From: Streptomyces deccanensis
GTDB lineage: Bacteria; Actinomycetota; Actinomycetes; Streptomycetales; Streptomycetaceae
DNA length: 64,000 nt
NCBI RefSeq assembly: GCF_022385335.1
Contig: NZ_CP092431.1
Location: 5,208,001 to 5,272,000 of the forward strand
Direction of reading: 5' to 3'
Shown here: positions 43,539 through 56,933 of the stretch, one piece after another
Numbering within the stretch: the first letter of the stretch is position 1
How the letters are laid out: each line of letters begins with the position of its first letter
Position numbers and translations under genes: made by a program
Notes under the pieces: model-generated
The model's database searches: none
What the model was told of the DNA's origin: nothing
Seen by the model: the letters and a program-made list of their open reading frames with translations, nothing else

Positions 43539-44462
43539 ATGACAGCCAATCAACAGAATCAGCCGGATCAACCCGATCAGCCCGATCAGCCCGATCAGCC
43601 GGATCGGCGGGATGTGACGCGTCGTAAGGTCGTCGTGGCCGGGGCGGGTGCCGTGGCGGCGGTGGGCCTCGGCGGCGCCATGGCGGCGAACGCCTTCGCG
43701 GGAGAGCGGAGAGGGAGCGCGGGCGAGGGCTCCGCGCCCTTACCCCGTCCCTCGGAGGAGTGCTATCAGCTGACCTCCGAGGCCATGGAGGGCCCGTACT
43801 ACATCGACGCCGACAAGATCCGCCGGGACGTGACCGAGGACAAGGAGGGCATCCCCCTCATCCTGCGTCTCAAGGTGATCGACTCCGAGACGTGCCGGCC
43901 GGTGCGCGACGCGGCCGTCGACATCTGGCACTGCGACGCGGTGGGTGTCTACTCCGGCTACGAGGACATGGGCAACGGTGACGGCGGCGGCCCGGCCCCC
44001 ACCGCCCCGCCGCCGAGCGGTGATCCCTCCGGTCCGCCCCCGGGCGGCCACCAGGAGCCGACGGACGACACCCGCTATCTGCGCGGCACCTGGCGGACGG
44101 ACCGGCAGGGCTTCGTCACGTTCAGGACCGTCTTCCCGGGCTGGTACCGGGGCCGGTGCGTGCACATCCACCTCAAGGTGCACGTCAACGGTGCGTGGAC
44201 GGACGCCGGTTACGAGGGCGGCAACACCTGCCACACCGGGCAGCTCTACTTCGACGAGGAGTCCGTCCTCGCGTCCGCCGAGGTCGAGCCGTACGCGTCG
44301 AACACGGCGGAGCGCACGACGCTCGACGAGGACTTCATCTACGACGGCAACGGCGCCCAAGGCGGACTGCTGAGACTCCGCTACGACCGGGGGGACATCG
44401 CGCAGGGCGTGCGGGCCTCGCTCACGGTGGGCGTGGACCCGGAGGCGACCAACGAGGGGTAG
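43539..44462 (+). CDS. Tat-exported intradiol ring-cleavage dioxygenase
   Basis: 307 residues. A Tat signal (TRRKVVVAGAGAVAAVG, ending near AFA) follows a QPD tripeptide repeat at residues 8-22. The dioxygenase domain has the non-haem Fe(III) ligands Tyr138 (or 141) in DAVGVYSGY, Tyr203 in FPGWYRGR, and His209/His211 in CVHIH. A Gly/Pro-rich insertion lies at about 146-172. Family members cleave catechol-like diols between the hydroxyls; the secreted Streptomyces type is little studied and may act on lignin-derived or humic phenols outside the cell (inference). TTGACA occurs 30 bases upstream, but no good -10. Followed by its own terminator and a paralogue. Confidence 0.85.
   Translation: MTANQQNQPDQPDQPDQPDQPDRRDVTRRKVVVAGAGAVAAVGLGGAMAANAFAGERRGSAGEGSAPLPRPSEECYQLTSEAMEGPYYIDADKIRRDVTEDKEGIPLILRLKVIDSETCRPVRDAAVDIWHCDAVGVYSGYEDMGNGDGGGPAPTAPPPSGDPSGPPPGGHQEPTDDTRYLRGTWRTDRQGFVTFRTVFPGWYRGRCVHIHLKVHVNGAWTDAGYEGGNTCHTGQLYFDEESVLASAEVEPYASNTAERTTLDEDFIYDGNGAQGGLLRLRYDRGDIAQGVRASLTVGVDPEATNEG
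43562..43606 (+). repeat. 9-bp tandem repeats at the start of the first dioxygenase gene
   Basis: Five head-to-tail units of the form GCCCGATCA encode the repeated tripeptide Gln-Pro-Asp ahead of the Tat motif. Confidence 0.85.
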
Positions 44463-44547: not shown

Positions 44548-44628
44548 ATTCCCTTCGCTCGGGAAATGCGGGACAAACCACAGCCCCTTCTTATCGCTCT
44601 GACAGTCGGGCTCCCTAATTTCCTGGCC

Positions 44629-45603
44629 ATGACGGGAAACCAGACCGGAAACGAGAAGGCCCAGGGGCCGAAACACAAGCGGGACCTGACGCGCCGCAAG
44701 GTCGTCGTGGCGGGCGCGGGTGCCGTGGCCGCCGTGGGCGTGGGCGGCGCGGTCGTCGCGACCGCGAGCGCGGGCACCACCACGAAGGGCAGCGCCAAGC
44801 CCCGCGCCTCCGCGAGCGCCGGGGAGGAGTGCTACCAGCTCACCTCGGAGACCACCGAGGGTCCGTACTACATCGACGCCGACAAGCTCCGCCGGGACAT
44901 CACCGAGGACAAGGAGGGCATCCCCCTCACTCTGCGCCTCAAGGTGATCGACTCCGTGACGTGCGAGCCGATCCGCGACGCGGCCGTCGACATCTGGCAC
45001 TGCGACGCGCTCGGGCTCTACTCGGGCTACGAGAGCTTCTCCGAGGGCGGCGGCACCGCCCCCACCGGCGCGCCCTCGGGCGAGCCGACGGGTGAGCCGC
45101 CGGCCGGCGGCGGGGGCGGGGGCGGCGGGCACGAGGAGCCGACCAGCGACACCCGCTATCTGCGCGGCACCTGGAAGACCGACAAGCAGGGTCAGGTCAC
45201 CTTCACGACGATCTTCCCGGGCTGGTACCGGGGCCGGTGCGTGCACATCCACACCTAGGTGCACGTCAACGGTGAGTGGACGGACGCGGGTTACGAGGGC
45301 GGGAACACCTGCCACACCGGGCAGTTCTTCTTCGACGAGGAGTCCGTCCTCGCGTCCGCCGAGGTCGAGCCGTACGCGACCTCCACGACGGAGCGCACCA
45401 CCCTCGACGACGACACCATCTACGACGGCAGCGGCACCCAGGGCGGTCTGCTCAAGCTGACGTACAAGAAGAACGACATCGCCAAGGGTGTCGTCGGCTC
45501 CCTCACGGTCGGTGTCGACCCGGAGGCCACGAACACCGGCACGGACGACTCCGTCCAGCCGGGCGCGTCGGAGGCGACGTCGGAGTCCGCCTCGGCGAGC
45601 TGA
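44629..45603 (+). pseudogene. Second Tat-type intradiol dioxygenase, interrupted by an in-frame amber codon
   Basis: Paralogue of the gene at 43539, with the same Tat motif (TRRKVVVAGAG), core and order. At 45253-45258 the paralogue's CTC AAG (Leu-Lys) is ACC TAG (Thr-stop), after which the frame continues without a shift for 114 more conserved codons to the stop at 45603. The break is one codon after the HIH iron ligands, so the 209-residue product would keep all four ligands but lose the C-terminal strands. Three substitutions fall within four bases while the flanks are near identical. A GTG directly after the stop could restart translation but has no ribosome site. Alternatives are a recent pseudogene, a sequencing error, or readthrough. 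Confidence 0.8.
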
Positions 45604-48429: not shown

Positions 48430-49020
48430 TCAGTACGGCCGTCGGCCCACCCAGTTCCCCGGCGGGTCGAAGTTGGCCACGACGTAGGTCCAGCCGTTCC
48501 CGCACCTCGCCTTGGCCGCGCCGACCCGGGTCGAGGCGCGCCAGACCAGCTGGGTGTAGTGGAGGCATTCCCGGTCGTTGACGCAGGAGTTGGAGGGGCG
48601 GTCGTAGTCGGACTTCTCGTCGAGCCACAGGCGGGCCGCGTCCGCCAGCGAGTAGCGGGGGCTGGACCCCTTGGCCAGGTTCTCGCCGTACCGGCTGTTC
48701 GAGTGGACGAGCTCGCAGTCGGCGACCCGCAGCCTCGCCCAGGAACGGGCCTGCGCGGCGACGGACTCGTCCCAGACCAGCGGAGGGACGCCGACGTCCG
48801 CCCGTGCCTGGTTGACGACCGCCAGAAAGCCTCTGACCTCCGGCTTCGACGCGGCCGACACCGACCCGGCACCGGTCACCCCCGCTGCCGTCGCCGTAGC
48901 CGTGACCGTCTCCACGACCGTGGGCCGGGGGCCGGCTGCCTGAGCCGCCCCCGGAGCGAGCGCCAGCGTCGCCGCCGCGGTCGCCGCGGCCACCGTCCGC
49001 GCCCTGTCCCGTCGCACCAC
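48430..49020 (-). CDS. Secreted CAP-domain (SCP/PR-1) protein 1
   Basis: 196 residues. GTG at 49020 follows AAGGAGG by five bases. The signal peptide (RRDRARTVAAATAAATLALAPGAAQAAG) is followed by a short linker and a CAP domain: VNQARADVGVPPLVWDESVAAQARSWA, HSNSRYGENLAKG and HYTQLVWRAST, split by me for length, are the three classic CAP signatures, with the cavity His and Glu present. It has six cysteines after the signal, some in CVNDREC. CAP proteins are extracellular and often bind lipids. It is divergent from the DUF4956-VTC operon. Confidence 0.87.
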   Translation of the reverse strand: MVRRDRARTVAAATAAATLALAPGAAQAAGPRPTVVETVTATATAAGVTGAGSVSAASKPEVRGFLAVVNQARADVGVPPLVWDESVAAQARSWARLRVADCELVHSNSRYGENLAKGSSPRYSLADAARLWLDEKSDYDRPSNSCVNDRECLHYTQLVWRASTRVGAAKARCGNGWTYVVANFDPPGNWVGRRPY

Positions 49021-49251
49021 TCGTGCCTCCTTCTGCTCCGCATCTCCAACTGCGCCAACTGCCTTACTGGCGCAGCTACTTGTAGGGCAGCGCGAGGACA
49101 GGCCGGGGGCCAGGGGATCTTCTGCCACCCCATCGGGGGAATCGGAGCACGTCCGGGTTTCGGAAGCCATTGCACCGTGACCTGCGGGCGGGCGCCCCTC
49201 GAGAGGGTCTGTTCGGAGGGAGCGAGCGGGGGAACACCACTGGGCGCCCGG

Positions 49252-49295
49252 GTTCACCCGCCGTTGGCCGGTGGAACTTCTCAAGTTCAGTTAAG
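49252..49295 (+). promoter_or_regulatory. Candidate PHO box upstream of the DUF4956-VTC operon
   Basis: Four contiguous 11-bp units start with GTTCACC (49252), GTTGGCC (49263), GAACTTC (49274) and GTTCAGT (49285). The first matches the PhoP unit GTTCACC exactly, the fourth at five of seven positions, the second at five, and the third poorly. It lies 47-90 bases upstream of the DUF4956 start. Confidence 0.45.
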
Positions 49296-49341
49296 GGAAG
49301 GCAAAGGGTGCTCAAAGGTCGACCCCCGATTGTCTTTTGAC

Positions 49342-49950
49342 ATGGACCAGACCCTTCTCGTGGTCGCCGATCTGGCCGCCATCTCCGTGCTGACCTTCGC
49401 GGTCTACTTCCCGCGCCACCACCGCCGGGACCTCATCGCCGCCTTCCTCGGCGTCAACGTCGGTGTGCTCGCGGTGGCGATGACGCTCAGCTCGTCGTCG
49501 GTCGGCATCGGCCTCGGCATGGGGCTGTTCGGCGTCCTGTCGATCATCCGGCTGCGGTCCAACGAGATCGCCCAGCACGAGATCGCGTACTACTTCTCCG
49601 CGCTCGCCCTCGGCCTGCTGGCCGGGCTGCCCGAGCAGGTCAACGCCCTGTCGATGCTGCTCATGGCACTGATCGTCGCCACGATGTACGTCGGCGACCA
49701 CCCCCGGCTGTTCGGCCGCTACCGGCAGCGCAGTCTGCGCCTCGACGCCGCCTACACCGACGAGGACGCCCTGCGCGCCCACCTCGAAGTCCTGCTGGGC
49801 GGGCGGGTGGTGAACCTCTCCGTGCAGAACGTCGACCTGGTCAACGACATGACCCTGGTCGACGTCCGGTACGTCGTCACCGGCGGGGGCCCGCGCGCAC
49901 CGCGAGAGGCCGGCGGCCGGGTCGAGCGGGCCGAGGGGGTCCGGGCATGA
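49342..49950 (+). CDS. DUF4956 integral membrane protein
   Basis: 202 residues. Four predicted transmembrane helices occupy residues 5-125 (for example VVADLAAISVLTFAVYF and NALSMLLMALIVATMYVG). The loop FGVLSIIRLRSNEIAQHEIAYYF is the family signature. A cytoplasmic domain (about 130-185, HLEVLLGGRVVNLSVQNVDL) ends the protein. DUF4956 genes are recurrently next to VTC-domain genes, and this protein could be the membrane channel or anchor for polymer transfer (inference). The ATG at 49342 has no Shine-Dalgarno, so initiation may be leaderless or elsewhere. ATGA overlap with the VTC gene. Confidence 0.83.
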   Translation: MDQTLLVVADLAAISVLTFAVYFPRHHRRDLIAAFLGVNVGVLAVAMTLSSSSVGIGLGMGLFGVLSIIRLRSNEIAQHEIAYYFSALALGLLAGLPEQVNALSMLLMALIVATMYVGDHPRLFGRYRQRSLRLDAAYTDEDALRAHLEVLLGGRVVNLSVQNVDLVNDMTLVDVRYVVTGGGPRAPREAGGRVERAEGVRA

Positions 49951-50741
49951 CGGCCCTGGACTCCGTCGCCCCCGTGGTCGGGGCGCTGCGCCCCATCGGC
50001 CTCGACGAACTCGTCGACCGCGCCGAGCTGCTGACCCGACTGGACCGCAAGTACATGCTGCCCCTCACCGACCTGCCCTTCGTGGTCGGCGGACTGGAGG
50101 AGGACGTACAGGTCCTGGAGGTCGACGGCGCGCGGCGGTTCGCGTACCGGTCCGTGTACTTCGACACCCCGGACATGGCCGGCTATCTGGCCGCCGCCCA
50201 CCGCCGCCGACGCCGCTTCAAGCTGCGGATACGGACCTACCTCGCCTCCGGGCAGCACTTCCTGGAGGTCAAGACGCGCGGTCCGCGCGGCACCACCGTC
50301 AAGCAGCGGGTCCCGTACGACGGGGAGCCGGGGCGGCTGGGTCCCGAGGCGCGGGCGTACGTCGACGACGTGCTCCGCGCGGCGGGCATCGACTCCCACG
50401 GCTTCCGCCTGGTCCCGGCGTTGACCACCCGCTACCTGCGCACCACCCTCTTCCTGCCGGGCAGCGGCAGCCGGGTCACCGTCGACACCGACCTGACCTG
50501 GGCGTTGCCCGACGGGACCGAGCTGCGCACCCCCGAGCGGACCATCGTCGAGACCAAGGCGGGCCGCGCCGGATCGAGCGCGGACCGGCTGCTGTGGTCG
50601 CTCAGGCACCGGCCCTGCCCGGTCTCCAAGTACGGCACCGGGCTCGCCGCGCTGCGGCCCGACCTGCCCGCCAACCGTTGGCTGCCCGTCCTGCGGCGCC
50701 ACTTCCCCACCGCACCGACACCGAACGGGAGCCCCGCATGA
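49947..50741 (+). CDS. VTC-domain protein (probable polyphosphate polymerase)
   Basis: 264 residues. The beta-tunnel VTC fold is recognised from TRLDRKYMLP, YRSVYFDTPDM, RRRRFKLRIRTY, FLEVKTRGPRG, RYLRTTLF and TIVETKAG, which line the tunnel with basic and acidic residues as in yeast Vtc4, where ATP is polymerised to polyphosphate with metal. No SPX domain is present. It overlaps both neighbours by ATGA, so the three proteins probably act as one machine. A role in polyphosphate or phosphate transfer to an envelope acceptor is inferred. Bacterial VTC proteins are largely uncharacterised. Confidence 0.85.
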   Translation: MTALDSVAPVVGALRPIGLDELVDRAELLTRLDRKYMLPLTDLPFVVGGLEEDVQVLEVDGARRFAYRSVYFDTPDMAGYLAAAHRRRRRFKLRIRTYLASGQHFLEVKTRGPRGTTVKQRVPYDGEPGRLGPEARAYVDDVLRAAGIDSHGFRLVPALTTRYLRTTLFLPGSGSRVTVDTDLTWALPDGTELRTPERTIVETKAGRAGSSADRLLWSLRHRPCPVSKYGTGLAALRPDLPANRWLPVLRRHFPTAPTPNGSPA

Positions 50742-52672
50742 ACATCCGTAGGAACACGTGGAGCACGTGGAGCACGTGGAGCACGTGGAGCGCAGGGAAC
50801 GCCCGCAACGGGACGAACGCGAGGAACTCGTGGACCGCCTGGCGCAGAAGGGCACGCGGGCTGCGTACGAAGTCCGCGGGCGCCCTCGCCTCCGTCGTCC
50901 TCGCGGCCGCCGCGCTGGCCGGGTGCTCCGCCGGGAGCGACTCCGGCTCGGCGTCGTCCGACTCCTCGACGAGCGCGAGCGCGGCGGCCGCCGTGGACGG
51001 CACCCGGAACGCGGCGGCCGTCCTCGCCGACAACGAGGAGACGCACGCCGAGGACGGCGACACCGCGTACGGGGAGGCGGACGAGGCGGCGGCTGTCGCC
51101 ATCGAACTGAAGGGCGACTCGGCCTCCGCCGACGGCAAGGGCGTGGACGTCGACGGGTCCACCGTCACCATCACCGCCGCCGGGACCTATGTGCTGAGCG
51201 GATCCCTCGACGACGGGCAGATCGTCGTCACCGCCCCCGAGGCGACCGTGAAGCTGGTCCTCGACGGCGTCGACATCTCCAGCTCCTCCGGGGCGGCCAT
51301 CGCCGCGACCGAGGCCGAACGGCTGGTCGTCGTCCTCGCGGACGGCAGCGAGAACAAGCTGAGCGACACCGACTCCTACGCCGACGACGCCGAGGCGAAC
51401 GCCGCCCTGTACAGCGCGGGCGACCTGACGATCGGCGGCGACGGCTCGCTGACCGTGCGGGGGAACGGCAACGACGCCATCGCCGGCAAGGACGGTCTGG
51501 TCGTCGAGGGCGGGAACATCACCGTCGAGGCCGCCGACGACGGCATCCGGGGCAAGGACTACCTGGTGGTGAACGGCGGCACGGTCACCGTGACGGCGAA
51601 GGGCGACGGGCTGAAGTCCGACAACGCGGACGAGGAGGACGCCGGTTACCTCGTCGTCGACGGCGGCACGGTCACCGTCACCGCGAACGGTGACGCCGTG
51701 GACGCCGCGACCGACCTCGTCGTCACCGGCGGCGAGCTGACGGTGAAGGCCGACGCCTCCGACGACACCTCGGCGCACGGTCTGAAGTCGGGGGTGATCA
51801 CCGTGCTGGAGGGCGGCACGGTCGACGTGGACGCCTCCGCCGACGCGCTGCACGGCGACGCGGCCGTCCACCTCAACGGCGCCGAGGTCACCCTCGCGGC
51901 CGGCGACGACGGCGTCCACGCCGAGGGCGACCTGGTCATCAGCGGGGGCACCCTGGACATCACCGGCTCCAACGAGGGCCTGGAGGGCAAGGACATCCTG
52001 GTCAGGGGCGGCACGTCGAACGTCACGTCCGACGACGACGGGGTCAACGCGTCGGGCAGCGAGGCGACGTCCGAGGAGGACGCGGACGCGCGGGGCGGCC
52101 GGGGCGGTGGCATGGAGGTCGGCGACTACACCGCCAAGGTCACCGGCGGCACGCTCGTCCTCGACTCCCAGGGCGACGGCTTCGACTCCAACGGCACCGC
52201 CGAGATCACGGGCGGCACGATCGTCGTCAACGGCCCCGAGACGGGCGGCAACGGGGCGCTCGACGTCAACGGCAGCTTCACCGTCAGCGGCGGCACGCTG
52301 CTCGCGGCCGGCAGCGCGGGCATGGTCGTCGCGCCGGACGAGGAGTCGGACCAGGGCTGGCTGTCGGCGACCCTGGACGCGTCGGTCGAGGCGGGCACCA
52401 CCCTGCACGTCGTCGACGCGGACGGCGAGGTCGTGGCGTCGTACGTCACCTCGAAGACCATCCAGAACGTCGTGTACTCGGGCGCCGGGATCGAGAGCGG
52501 CGAGGAGTACACCGTGTACGCCGGCGGCTCCACCTCCGGCTCGGACACCGGTGGCCTGGCCGGCTCCGGCGCGCTCGGCTCGGCGGAGAAGATCGCCACG
52601 GTCACCGCGGGTGAGGCCCCGGAGGGCGGCTTCGGGGGCGGTCCGGGCGGGGGCGGCGACCGAGGACAGTAG
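50738..52672 (+). CDS. Lipoprotein with repetitive carbohydrate-binding/cadherin-like beta domain
   Basis: 644 residues. A hydrophobic stretch ending in the lipobox LAGC (Cys63) makes it a lipoprotein. It is preceded by an unusual 45-residue N-terminal region with WST repeats. After a Ser/Ala/Asp-rich linker the body is a right-handed beta-solenoid-like array of short repeats (GLVVEGGNITVEAADDGIRG, LVVNGGTVTVTAKGDGLK and so on). This matches the carbohydrate-binding-domain (DUF4353) proteins often encoded with VTC/CotH genes. It is very acidic (many Asp) and may bind calcium or polymer. ATGA overlap with the VTC gene, with GGGAG six bases before the ATG. It lies outside the membrane and may be the acceptor or scaffold of the module. 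Confidence 0.82.
   Translation: MNIRRNTWSTWSTWSTWSAGNARNGTNARNSWTAWRRRARGLRTKSAGALASVVLAAAALAGCSAGSDSGSASSDSSTSASAAAAVDGTRNAAAVLADNEETHAEDGDTAYGEADEAAAVAIELKGDSASADGKGVDVDGSTVTITAAGTYVLSGSLDDGQIVVTAPEATVKLVLDGVDISSSSGAAIAATEAERLVVVLADGSENKLSDTDSYADDAEANAALYSAGDLTIGGDGSLTVRGNGNDAIAGKDGLVVEGGNITVEAADDGIRGKDYLVVNGGTVTVTAKGDGLKSDNADEEDAGYLVVDGGTVTVTANGDAVDAATDLVVTGGELTVKADASDDTSAHGLKSGVITVLEGGTVDVDASADALHGDAAVHLNGAEVTLAAGDDGVHAEGDLVISGGTLDITGSNEGLEGKDILVRGGTSNVTSDDDGVNASGSEATSEEDADARGGRGGGMEVGDYTAKVTGGTLVLDSQGDGFDSNGTAEITGGTIVVNGPETGGNGALDVNGSFTVSGGTLLAAGSAGMVVAPDEESDQGWLSATLDASVEAGTTLHVVDADGEVVASYVTSKTIQNVVYSGAGIESGEEYTVYAGGSTSGSDTGGLAGSGALGSAEKIATVTAGEAPEGGFGGGPGGGGDRGQ
50756..50791 (+). repeat. 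9-bp tandem repeats at the start of the lipoprotein gene
   Basis: Four perfect copies of ACGTGGAGC encode the repeated Trp-Ser-Thr in the N-terminal tail. Length variation by slippage would keep the frame. Confidence 0.9.
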
Positions 52673-52726: not shown

Positions 52727-53581
52727 CTACGCGGGTGTCCCGAAGTTCTGGGTCCAGTAGTTGCCCGGCTGGGCCAGGCCGATGCCGATCTCCTTGAAAC
52801 CGCAGTTGAGGATGTTCGCCTTGTGGCCGGGGCTGTTCATCCAGCCGTCCATGACGCTCTCGGCGGTGCCGTACCCGGCGGCGACGTTCTCGCCCGCCGA
52901 ACGGAACGCGTACCCGACACGGCGGAGCCGCTCACTCATGTCCGAGCCGTCGGAGCCGGTGTGGGACATGTTCCGGTGGTCGGCCATGTCCTGGCTGTGG
53001 TCCTGGGCGGCCTTGGTCAGCTTGGCGTCCACGGTCACCGGCGAGCAACCGGCCTTCTGGCGTTCGGCGTTGACCAGGCTCAGCACCTGAGCGGTGGGAC
53101 CGGAGGCCGCGGTGCCGGCGGAGGTCGCGGGAGCGCGTTCGGCCTGGGTGGCCTTCGGGGCGCTCGGCGGCGGTGTGGTCCTGGCCGGGGTGTCGGCGGC
53201 CTCGGGGGTGGACTTGGGCTTCGGCTTGGCGGACTTGGAGGGCGACGCGCTCGCCTTGGCCTTGGAACGCGACGGACTCGGGGAGCTCTCCGGAGTGTCC
53301 GGGGCGCTCTCGACGGAGGGCGTCGCGGACGCGGAGGGTGTGCGCGACGGCGTGGCCGGAGCCGGCTCCCGCTTCTCCCCTCCCCACCAGGAGGAGGCCA
53401 CGTTGCCCCAGTCGCCCAGCCCGACCCCGCCGGCCCACGCGGCCGTGGGGATGCCCACGGCGCCCACGGCCACCACGAACGCGGTGGCGACGGCTATCTT
53501 CCGGCGCGTCGTCCTGGGCTGCCGCGCCGCCGACCGTTTCGTCCTACGGCGGTGACTGTTCGTTCGTCTCGTGCGTGTCAT
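52727..53581 (-). CDS. Secreted CAP-domain (SCP/PR-1) protein 2
   Basis: 284 residues. A strongly basic N region (RRTKRSAARQPRTTRRK) precedes a hydrophobic core (AVATAFVVAVGAVGIPTAAWAG), forming a long signal peptide. A Pro/Ser/Lys/Thr linker of about 100 residues follows. The CAP domain begins at about residue 165 (VLSLVNAERQKAGCSPV, MSHTG, GENVAAGYGTAESVMDGWMNS, HKANILN), the YkwD-type subgroup. The ATG at 53581 follows GAGG by six bases. It faces the VTC operon from downstream, so two CAP genes bracket it. Confidence 0.87.
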   Translation of the reverse strand: MTRTRRTNSHRRRTKRSAARQPRTTRRKIAVATAFVVAVGAVGIPTAAWAGGVGLGDWGNVASSWWGGEKREPAPATPSRTPSASATPSVESAPDTPESSPSPSRSKAKASASPSKSAKPKPKSTPEAADTPARTTPPPSAPKATQAERAPATSAGTAASGPTAQVLSLVNAERQKAGCSPVTVDAKLTKAAQDHSQDMADHRNMSHTGSDGSDMSERLRRVGYAFRSAGENVAAGYGTAESVMDGWMNSPGHKANILNCGFKEIGIGLAQPGNYWTQNFGTPA

Positions 53582-54065
53582 ACGTGGCCTCACTGAATGG
53601 TCCGACTTCGACGCAATCGACCCCTTGGCAGGCCGTGGCCCTGGTGAGCCCGGTCATTATGGGGACCCCTCGCCGCACCGGGCAACGAACACGTGTGCTG
53701 GCCCCGAAGCGCTCCGACGAGACCTCCCGAGGGGGTCGGGGCGCACGCGCCCGGCGGATCGCCGCGTGCCCCCGAGTGCCCGAACCCGCCCTGGGAGCAG
53801 GCAGAAAGCCGTTGCGCCGACGGCGTCGGAGCGGGAGTCGTCGCTCCGGACGATCAGTTGGATTCGCCGTCTGTGCGGCAAATGCCGGATGAGGCTTCGA
53901 GCGGCGCCATTTGTCGCTTTGCTGAAACGGATTGATCGGTTCCAACGTGTGCGATTCGGTCGTGACGCATGTCACCCCGATTCGAGGTGTGTGCGTGAGG
54001 GGCGCAGACTGGATGGAGAAGCGGAGATCGCACAGACCCCGCGGTGATCCGGTCGTGGAGGAATC

Positions 54066-54587: not shown

Positions 54588-55376
54588 ATGAGTTCTGAAC
54601 CCAGGAGACGGGCCCGGTTGGGCCCGTTCCCGGTGCGTGGTGCCCGGCTGGCCGGCAGCACCCTCGCCCTCGCCACCTTCGCCCTCCTCGTCACCGGCGC
54701 CGCGAACCCCGCCGCCGCGACGCCGCGTGCCGCCGGCACGGAGGCGGGCACCGCCTCGCTCACGGGCGCGCCGGCGGGTGACCCCTGCCGCAAGCCGAAG
54801 CCGAAGCCGCACCCCAAGGCCGAGGTCGGGGCCGAGACGGGCAGTGCCGGCCACCTCGACAAGTGCAAGGTCGGCCCGACGGGTCCGACGGGGCCGGCGG
54901 GTCCGGCCGGGCCCACCGGACCGACCGGACCGAAGGGCGACCCTGGTGTGCAGGGACCTCGGGGTGAGACCGGACCTCGGGGTGAGACGGGACCTCGGGG
55001 TGATACAGGGCCTCAGGGTGACCCCGGGCCGTGCTCCGACATCGACAGCTACCTCCCCTCGAACTCGGAGGAGTTCACCGCCGTGCTCACCGGCGGGCGG
55101 GCGTACGTGGGGCAGCGGTCGGTCAACCCGTTGCCGCCGGGTGCCTACGTGTGGGAAGACCTCACGGACAACGACCTGCCCCCTGGTGTGGCCGTCAATT
55201 TCCCCGCGACCGCCTGCGCCATCTCCATCTCGTCCCAGGGCAACGACACCTGGGTCAAGGTGGTGACCACGGCGGGCGCCATCTGGGAGACGCACGGCGA
55301 CACGAATGGCAACGCCTTCGTGTGGGACGAGGGCTGGAGCCCTCTGGCAGCGCTGCCGCTCCCGCCGAACCCGTAA
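54588..55376 (+). CDS. Secreted collagen-like protein
   Basis: 262 residues. A signal peptide (basic start, core [15 protein letters not shown], cut near AAA-T) leads to a Lys/Pro-rich linker. A collagen Gly-X-Y tract of 18 triplets runs from residue 96 to 149 ([12 protein letters not shown] and so on, ending GPC). Cys93 and Cys149 bracket the helix and could lock a trimer. A C-terminal beta-rich globular domain of about 110 residues (150-262) follows. AAGGAG lies six bases before the ATG. Bacterial collagens trimerise outside the cell and mediate adhesion or hyphal aggregation. The adjacent secreted pectate lyase suggests a plant-associated or surface role (inference). Confidence 0.87.
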
Positions 55377-55506
55377 AGCCTCAGGCACCCCAGGGGCCCC
55401 GTCCCTGAACGGCGGCCGTCGCTCGCACAGGGCGGCCGCCAACTCCTGTCAAGATTCCTGGAATCGGGGCGGCAACCTTTCAAAACCCTGCGACCACACA
55501 TGAGTC

Positions 55507-55570
55507 GGAACCCCCTTCACGAGGGTTCCACACGAACCACGTGTTCTCCCGAACCACGTACGTTACGTAA
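55507..55570. promoter_or_regulatory. Repeat-rich leader/promoter region of the pectate lyase gene
   Basis: GGAACCC (55507-55513) and GGGTTCC (55523-55529) form an inverted repeat. CGAACCACGT occurs twice (55533-55542 and 55550-55559, period 17). A TTACGTAA palindrome lies at 55563-55570, just before the ribosome site. The density of repeats suggests an operator or leader structure. Confidence 0.45.
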
Positions 55571-55580
55571 GGACTCATCC

Positions 55581-56933
55581 GTGGCCTCTGCCTCCCCGCG
55601 CCCGTCCCACCGCCGGTCCCTCCGCAAGCGGCGCACCCTCGTGGTCTCCGCCGCAGCCGTGGCCGCCGCGGTCGGCGCCGGCGTCCTCGTGATGAACGCC
55701 AACGCCAGCCCCACCGACCTGTACCACCAGGTGCTGCCCGCCAAGGACGGCTGGGCGGCGTCCGGCTCCGGCACGACCGGCGGCGCGAAGGCCGACGCGG
55801 CGCACACCTTCACGGTGTCGACGCGGGCGCAACTGGTGAAGGCGCTCGGCTCCGCCACCGACACCACGCCCCGCATCATCAAGATCAAGGGCACGATCGA
55901 CGCCAACACCAACGACTCCGGCAAGAAGCTGACCTGCGCGGACTACGCCGCCGGCACCGGCTACTCGCTCTCCGCGTACCTCAAGGCGTTCGACCCCGCG
56001 AAGTACGGCAAGAAGGTCCCGTCGGGCACCCAGGAGACCGCCCGCAAGGCCGCTCAGGACAAGCAGAAGAAGAACATCGTCCTCCGGGTGCCGTCCAACA
56101 CCACCATCGTGGGCGTCCCCGGCACCAAGGCCGGCATCCTCGGCGGCAGCGTCCTGGTCCAGAACGTCAAGAACGTCATCATCCGCAACCTGACCTTCGC
56201 GGACACCCAGGACTGCTTCCCGCAGTGGGACCCGACCGACGGCTCGGCCGGCGAGTGGAACTCCAACTACGACTCCGTCACGCTGCGCGGCGCGACCAAC
56301 GTCTGGGCGGACCACAACACGTTCACCGACGCGCCGACCTTCGACAAGACCGAGGCGACCCACTTCGGCCGCAAGTACCAGGTGCACGACGGCGCGTTGG
56401 ACATCACCAACGGCTCCGACCTGGTGACCGTCGAGCGCAACCAGTTCCTCAACCACGACAAGACGATGCTGATCGGCTCCAGCGACACCGACAGCACGGG
56501 CAAGCTGCGCGTGACGATCCACCACAACCTGTGGAAGGGCATCGTGCAGCGGGCGCCCCTGGCCCGCATCGGCCAGATCCACCTCTACAACAACGTGTAC
56601 GACACCGCCACGGTCAACGGCTACGCGCCCAAGTACAGCATCGACTCGCGCGCCAAGGCCCAGGTCGTCGCCGAGCGCAACGTCTGGAAGATTCCCGCCG
56701 ACGCGAAGGTCGCCAAGCTGCTGAGCGGCGACGGCACGGGTTCGCTCGCGGGCACCGGCAACATCGTCAACGGCAAGGCCACGGACATCGTCGCCGCGTA
56801 CAACGCCGCGAGCTCCAAGAAGCTGAAGACGACGGTCAACTGGACCCCGGCCCTCACCGCCGGCCTCCAGACCACGGTCACCAACCTGCTGACCGACCTG
56901 ACCGGCACGACGGGCGCGGGCACGCTCTCCTGA
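55581..56933 (+). CDS. Secreted pectate lyase (polysaccharide lyase family 1)
   Basis: 450 residues. The signal peptide has a basic N region (HRRSLRKRRT) and a hydrophobic core (LVVSAAAVAAAVGAGVLV). The parallel beta-helix shows family signatures: NLTFADTQDCFPQWDPTDG, DHNTFTDAP, HDGALDITNGSDLVTVERN and QRAPLARIGQIHLYNNVYD. The Arg in the last motif is in the position of the catalytic base, and the Asp residues should bind calcium. It cleaves polygalacturonate by beta-elimination. The GTG at 55581 follows AAGGA by seven bases; an ATG at 55500 would add an out-of-family leader. Confidence 0.9.
   Translation: MASASPRPSHRRSLRKRRTLVVSAAAVAAAVGAGVLVMNANASPTDLYHQVLPAKDGWAASGSGTTGGAKADAAHTFTVSTRAQLVKALGSATDTTPRIIKIKGTIDANTNDSGKKLTCADYAAGTGYSLSAYLKAFDPAKYGKKVPSGTQETARKAAQDKQKKNIVLRVPSNTTIVGVPGTKAGILGGSVLVQNVKNVIIRNLTFADTQDCFPQWDPTDGSAGEWNSNYDSVTLRGATNVWADHNTFTDAPTFDKTEATHFGRKYQVHDGALDITNGSDLVTVERNQFLNHDKTMLIGSSDTDSTGKLRVTIHHNLWKGIVQRAPLARIGQIHLYNNVYDTATVNGYAPKYSIDSRAKAQVVAERNVWKIPADAKVAKLLSGDGTGSLAGTGNIVNGKATDIVAAYNAASSKKLKTTVNWTPALTAGLQTTVTNLLTDLTGTTGAGTLS

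Follow-up and report, generated by a model that had tools for sequence, protein, structure and literature searches.

Polyphosphate synthesis in prokaryotes is usually credited to PPK enzymes (PMC7332688). Described systems that come closest to the locus studied here are the yeast VTC complex (the polymerase Vtc4 with Vtc1 and Vtc3), the accessory genes for CotH, a polyphosphate polymerase and DUF4956 in Gram-positive Pel loci (PMC7112168), and the NELoc-2 locus of Clostridium perfringens, for which VTC genes, 'tubulin' genes and CotH are listed (PMC2879425). We analyzed a window of 64,000 nucleotides, the whole stretch of DNA under study, from Streptomyces deccanensis (contig NZ_CP092431.1, positions 5,208,001 to 5,272,000). 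Three genes at positions 49342-52672 of this window encode a DUF4956 membrane protein, a VTC-domain protein and a Cthe_2159-family lipoprotein (Table 1). All three lie on the + strand, and their open reading frame (ORF) coordinates bear out the original prediction of an operon with two ATGA overlaps, one at the DUF4956/VTC junction and one at the VTC/Cthe_2159 junction. The three-gene group is a real, conserved module. Its best reading, in which we place slightly less than even confidence, is a membrane polyphosphate synthase, possibly also an exporter, with an exchangeable outside partner.

The source genome has one gene each of DUF4956, VTC and Cthe_2159 (two Cthe_2159 matches belong to one open frame) and also a PPK1 gene. 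The best named protein matches are from Streptomyces, including S. caniscabiei and S. europaeiscabiei. Searches of NCBIfam gave no match at E 0.1, and searches of Rfam gave no family at gathering score.

A conserved gene pair with an exchangeable partner

Conservation was assessed in 80 related loci, a 149-genome phylum sample, plasmid records and 199 Streptomyces genomes. DUF4956 lies directly 5' of VTC in 79 of the 80 related loci (the exception is L071), and the two genes share an NTGA stop/start overlap in 78. Of the 69 loci where Cthe_2159 lies downstream, 42 keep the VTC/Cthe_2159 overlap. Because the pair and the overlaps recur in this way, the arrangement is more than chance. VTC occurs in 16 of the 149 genomes of the phylum sample, source genome included, and DUF4956 adjoins it, in either order, in all 16 regions from the 15 other genomes; the VTC gene of one phylum-sample locus (L140) is broken. 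Fifteen of the 16 plasmid records with VTC also have DUF4956. For the Streptomyces genomes the counts are 48 with VTC, 42 with DUF4956 and 41 with both, and the genome with DUF4956 and no VTC (G275) has its DUF4956 gene at a contig end. A 304-amino-acid protein encoding DUF4956 and VTC in a single ORF (P0197) is truncated in both domains and was thus not counted as a fusion.

The third gene is Cthe_2159 in 70 of the 80 related loci (69 downstream, one upstream). CotH stands downstream in seven and upstream in one; of the remaining two loci, one has no recognised partner and one meets a contig end. The partner in the 16 phylum regions is CotH in 11, Cthe_2159 in three and none recognised in two. 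A lack of co-conservation of the three genes, which would have counted against the original prediction, was not seen, although the third gene is swapped in other lineages. Cthe_2159 adjoins the pair in all nine Streptomyces genomes that bear it and, by coordinate comparison, 15 of the 18 CotH copies in the 199 genomes adjoin the pair, or DUF4956 in G275. Further partners are PAP2 proteins (L154, L161 and L167 by Pfam, L168 by likeness only) and phytase-like proteins (in Shinella and Nitratireductor by Pfam, in Aminobacter by annotation); a gene for a PHO4 phosphate transporter lies beside the Nitratireductor locus.

The VTC protein resembles Vtc4

The VTC protein matches the Pfam VTC profile with E 8e-24 (84.9 bits, cut-off 23). 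Its sole other Pfam match is a weak one to CYTH (E 0.0086, under the cut-off of that profile) and, as originally predicted, none was found to SPX. Because the protein has neither the SPX domain nor the transmembrane domain of the eukaryotic polymerase subunit, the locus was not classed as a eukaryotic VTC complex. A broad bacterial VTC profile retrieves Vtc4 with E 1.7e-24, and in structural and profile comparisons the protein comes closest to VTC chains, among which Vtc4 ranks above Vtc2 and Vtc3. No variation was seen across 29 divergent bacterial VTCs at the mapped tunnel and metal residues, and K35, R94, R96, K109, K119, R165, R176, E202, K204 and K228 are kept in all 80 related loci. Loss of the basic tunnel residues, named beforehand as a result that would speak against a polymerase, was not seen. 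The VTC protein is Vtc4-like and likely polymerase-competent, as its sequence supports well.

Twenty further Streptomyces regions have a pair with no adjoining Cthe_2159 or CotH. The K200 lysine is retained in the four of these that have PAP2; in the remaining 16 (L155-L160, L162-L166 and L169-L173) it is replaced by S, A, C or G. In the seven Streptomyces genomes with VTC alone, K200 is lost in all seven and E202 in three. L138 and L152 keep the lysine though no partner is recognised. This correlation among relatives suggests that partner presence and VTC activity go together, and the partnerless, K200-less Streptomyces pairs are perhaps a class with another activity.

The membrane protein and the lipoprotein

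The DUF4956 protein matches its Pfam family over the full profile (1-169 of 169, E 1.4e-59, 201.1 bits, cut-off 30.6). Instead of the four helices first proposed, its structure model has five, with a C-terminal beta-alpha-beta-beta domain, at low confidence (mean predicted local distance difference test score, pLDDT, 65). The most constant residues in the aligned sequences are R72 (127 of 127), R70 (124 of 127) and F85 (124 of 127), and the basic loops fit a topology with the N-terminus outside and the C-terminus inside.

The third protein is the very acidic beta-solenoid lipoprotein that had been anticipated. It has an isoelectric point of 4.05 (101 D+E vs 32 K+R), a lipobox LAGC with C63 as the lipid-anchor cysteine, and a match to the Pfam family Cthe_2159 with E 9e-85 (284.5 bits, cut-off 25.8). 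Residues 123-346 match a solved beta-helix chain (E 8.8e-38); the Protein Data Bank (PDB) entries 4PEU and 4PHB, which carry the name 'uncharacterized protein', are presumably Cthe_2159. A 9-bp tandem repeat of 4.6 copies encodes a repeated TWS stretch at the lipoprotein start, ahead of the signal sequence.

Upstream region and neighbouring genes

The region 5' of DUF4956 contains an operator-like element, whose spacing is known from OmpR/PhoB-type regulator sites. Blocks TTCTCAA, GTTAAG, CAAAG and TCA[AC]AG, with spacing of 10, 11 and 11 nt, are conserved in 25 Streptomyces upstream regions. By a two-unit matrix (p 0.05 or less, 200 composition shuffles per locus), 38 of the 55 loci outside the training set have tandem sites 5' of DUF4956, in 31 of the 38 at 67-99 nt before the start; a reverse-strand control gave 3 of 55. 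By class, the sites occur in two of eight CotH loci (L077 at -89, L075 at -192) and in 36 of the 47 others, so that this 11-bp-periodic element stands ahead of many operons of the Cthe_2159 type. The loci are related, so the 38 sites represent conservation and not 38 independent cases. The genes beside 30 of the 43 genome-wide matches to the repeat form no clear regulon.

A PHO box was rated weak as a regulator site because there is a single convincing unit. The criterion for Streptomyces PhoP is a pair of adjoining GTTCACC-like units of 11 nt; here the unit at 49252 is good, the next one is poor, and the site varies in relatives. Pattern searches for a sigma-70-type promoter and a terminator found none. 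Some other VTC loci have two-component genes next to them: a histidine kinase gene was identified by Pfam at L156, and by likeness only at L154 and L139.

For the four flanking genes that were tested, counterparts are present in 4 to 9 of the 80 related loci. Among the neighbours, the operon has a CAP-domain protein gene on either side; the one at 48430-49284 recurs in 6 and the one at 52730-53593 in 4 of the 80 loci. One of two adjoining dioxygenase-like paralogues is apparently broken by an in-frame stop.

Table 1. Positions of the operon, upstream elements and neighbouring features in the window
Feature	Position	Strand	Basis or remark
DUF4956 gene (PF16316), membrane protein	49342..49950	+	ORF of 202 amino acids; Pfam match
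VTC-domain gene (PF09359), SPX-less tunnel enzyme, candidate polyphosphate polymerase	49947..50741	+	ORF of 264 amino acids; Pfam match
Cthe_2159-family gene (PF14262), acidic beta-helix lipoprotein	50738..52672	+	ORF of 644 amino acids; Pfam match; lipobox Cys63
Operator-like element: TTCTCAA, GTTAAGG, CAAAGG, TCAAAGG, spaced 10-11-11 nt	49278..49318	+	conservation
GTTCACCCGCC, single PHO-box-like unit, partly conserved, weak	49252..49262	+	consensus from PMC4415409, PMC6283541
GATTGTC just 5' of start codon, perhaps belonging to a leader or promoter	49328..49334	+	conservation
9-bp tandem repeat	50751-50791		
CAP-domain protein gene	48430-49284	-	
CAP-domain protein gene	52730-53593	-	
Dioxygenase-like paralogue	43539-44462		
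Second dioxygenase-like gene, apparently interrupted	44566-45603	+	in-frame stop
Secreted-looking protein with collagen-like repeats	54588-55376	+	
Pectate lyase gene	55500-56930	+	

Proposed mechanism and alternatives

To judge from its residues and fold, the VTC protein would lie on the cytosolic face and use ATP to polymerise phosphate within its basic tunnel. DUF4956 would hold this tunnel at the membrane and probably pass the chain outward, which is the job of the transmembrane helices in yeast VTC. The Cthe_2159 lipoprotein, anchored outside, may bind or organise the exported chain, perhaps via calcium, and the conservation of the 11-bp repeats suggests that a response regulator would turn the operon on through them. 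Export and use outside are plausible. The original prediction, of polymer made at the membrane with an external acceptor or calcium scaffold, is supported in part. In its favor, the phosphate-related neighbours at other loci (PHO4, PAP2, phytase-like) fit a phosphate polymer, and Cthe_2159 requires Ca2+ for ligand recognition (PMC8746771). Its reported ligands are cellulose and polygalacturonate (PMC6712302), polysaccharides and not polyphosphate.

These ligands weigh against a polyphosphate synthase-exporter, and so do several other observations. The identity of the third gene changes between loci, and for some pairs no partner was recognised; some of the K200-less pairs may not make polymer; and the VTC-bearing plasmid record of Deinococcus sp. 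QL22 has no DUF4956 match. The DUF4956 model is of poor quality, and a PDB structure search with it gave no match at E 0.001 and nothing usable. As for regulation, the two-unit repeat is not enriched genome-wide (43 matches vs 47 for the control), and conservation shows an autocorrelation of only 0.26-0.27 at lags of 11-12 nt.

Somewhat unlikely, in our judgment, is a tethered polymerase without export, in which DUF4956 would be an MgtC-like sensor or anchor regulating VTC at the inner face and the lipoprotein a co-expressed surface adhesin. MgtC proteins are built of five helices with a C-terminal domain. When the DUF4956 and MgtC (PF02308) profiles were compared, the matches were collinear, with probabilities of 51% in local mode (159 columns) and 63% in global mode (199 columns), which are below usual significance; VTC as a control gave 0.1%. 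Four of 15 single MgtC proteins (28.9, 28.8, 28.2 and 23.6) outscore the best (23.1) of 66 other multi-helix proteins, which remained from 73 controls after seven had been set aside as DUF4956 themselves by score. However, the Pfam MgtC model matches only one of 36 members, at E 0.81, and we regard kinship with MgtC as suggestive only. Moreover, the partner classes look exported and vary with lineage, which is simpler if the product is met outside.

We consider it unlikely that the locus is a polysaccharide machine, with a VTC product that tunes or decorates an extracellular polysaccharide bound by Cthe_2159 or CotH. The Cthe_2159 ligands speak for this, as do the cellulose-binding CBM_2 domains in five of seven scanned downstream CotH partners, the Pel genes beside CotH, polyphosphate polymerase and DUF4956 (PMC7112168), and the putative glycosyltransferase genes, judged from first residues only, that adjoin L138, L141 and L142. 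A pectate lyase gene lies 3 kb from the operon, with a relative near 17 of the 80 related loci, all Streptomyces. However, the four tested flanking genes are absent from most loci, and close pectate lyase orthologues (at least 73% identity) occur in 29 of the 199 Streptomyces genomes, only six of them with Cthe_2159. Pectate lyase was rejected as a fourth member of the operon, given the 23 genomes with a close orthologue and no Cthe_2159 and one of the six (G246) in which it is far from the operon.

A fuller version of the synthase-exporter reading seems to us quite improbable as a whole: polyphosphate would be exported via DUF4956 and the third gene would set its use, as surface calcium-polyphosphate with Cthe_2159, as a store drawn on by PAP2 and phytase-like proteins, and as the source from which secreted CotH kinases, which have no ATP outside, phosphorylate surface proteins. 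Very improbable, in our view, is that the VTC protein acts as a hydrolase or as some other tunnel enzyme, of the triphosphatase type, and not as a polymerase. In favor of this are the triphosphatases and cyclases that share the tunnel fold and rank behind VTC chains among the structural matches, and the weak CYTH match. Against it, the best matches are VTC chains, Vtc4 first and then Vtc2 and Vtc3.

Comparison with known systems

If a polyphosphate synthase with an outside partner is correct, bacteria could place polyphosphate on their surface by means of a second, Vtc4-like synthase that is tied to a membrane protein and a swappable outside partner, and DUF4956, CotH and Cthe_2159 proteins would gain a common context. 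The role of bacterial VTC proteins becomes a directly testable question with three genes.

The locus shares with the yeast VTC complex the tunnel fold, the mapped tunnel and metal residues, and the combination of a polymerase with membrane helices. Unlike in yeast, the bacterial polymerase lacks SPX and a transmembrane part, DUF4956 is the membrane partner, and a lipoprotein is added outside. With MgtC it possibly shares the layout of the membrane protein (a weak profile match), in another operon setting. The third protein has the beta-helix fold of the Cthe_2159 family and differs in being a lipoprotein coupled to a VTC operon. We take the 'tubulin' gene of NELoc-2 to stand at the DUF4956 position. 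If so, the VTC-DUF4956 core is shared with NELoc-2, which has CotH in place of Cthe_2159 and lies beside other genes (PMC2879425). The same core is found in the Pel-locus group, again with CotH in place of Cthe_2159, and beside Pel genes (PMC7112168). Among the matches listed from the open-licence literature, we found no paper on the DUF4956-VTC-Cthe_2159 set. To call bacterial VTC operons nearly unexplored, as the original prediction did, is fair for that literature, save for the published Pel-associated group (PMC7112168). The CotH/polymerase/DUF4956 group is thus already known, and the variation at this locus is the Cthe_2159 lipoprotein as its partner.
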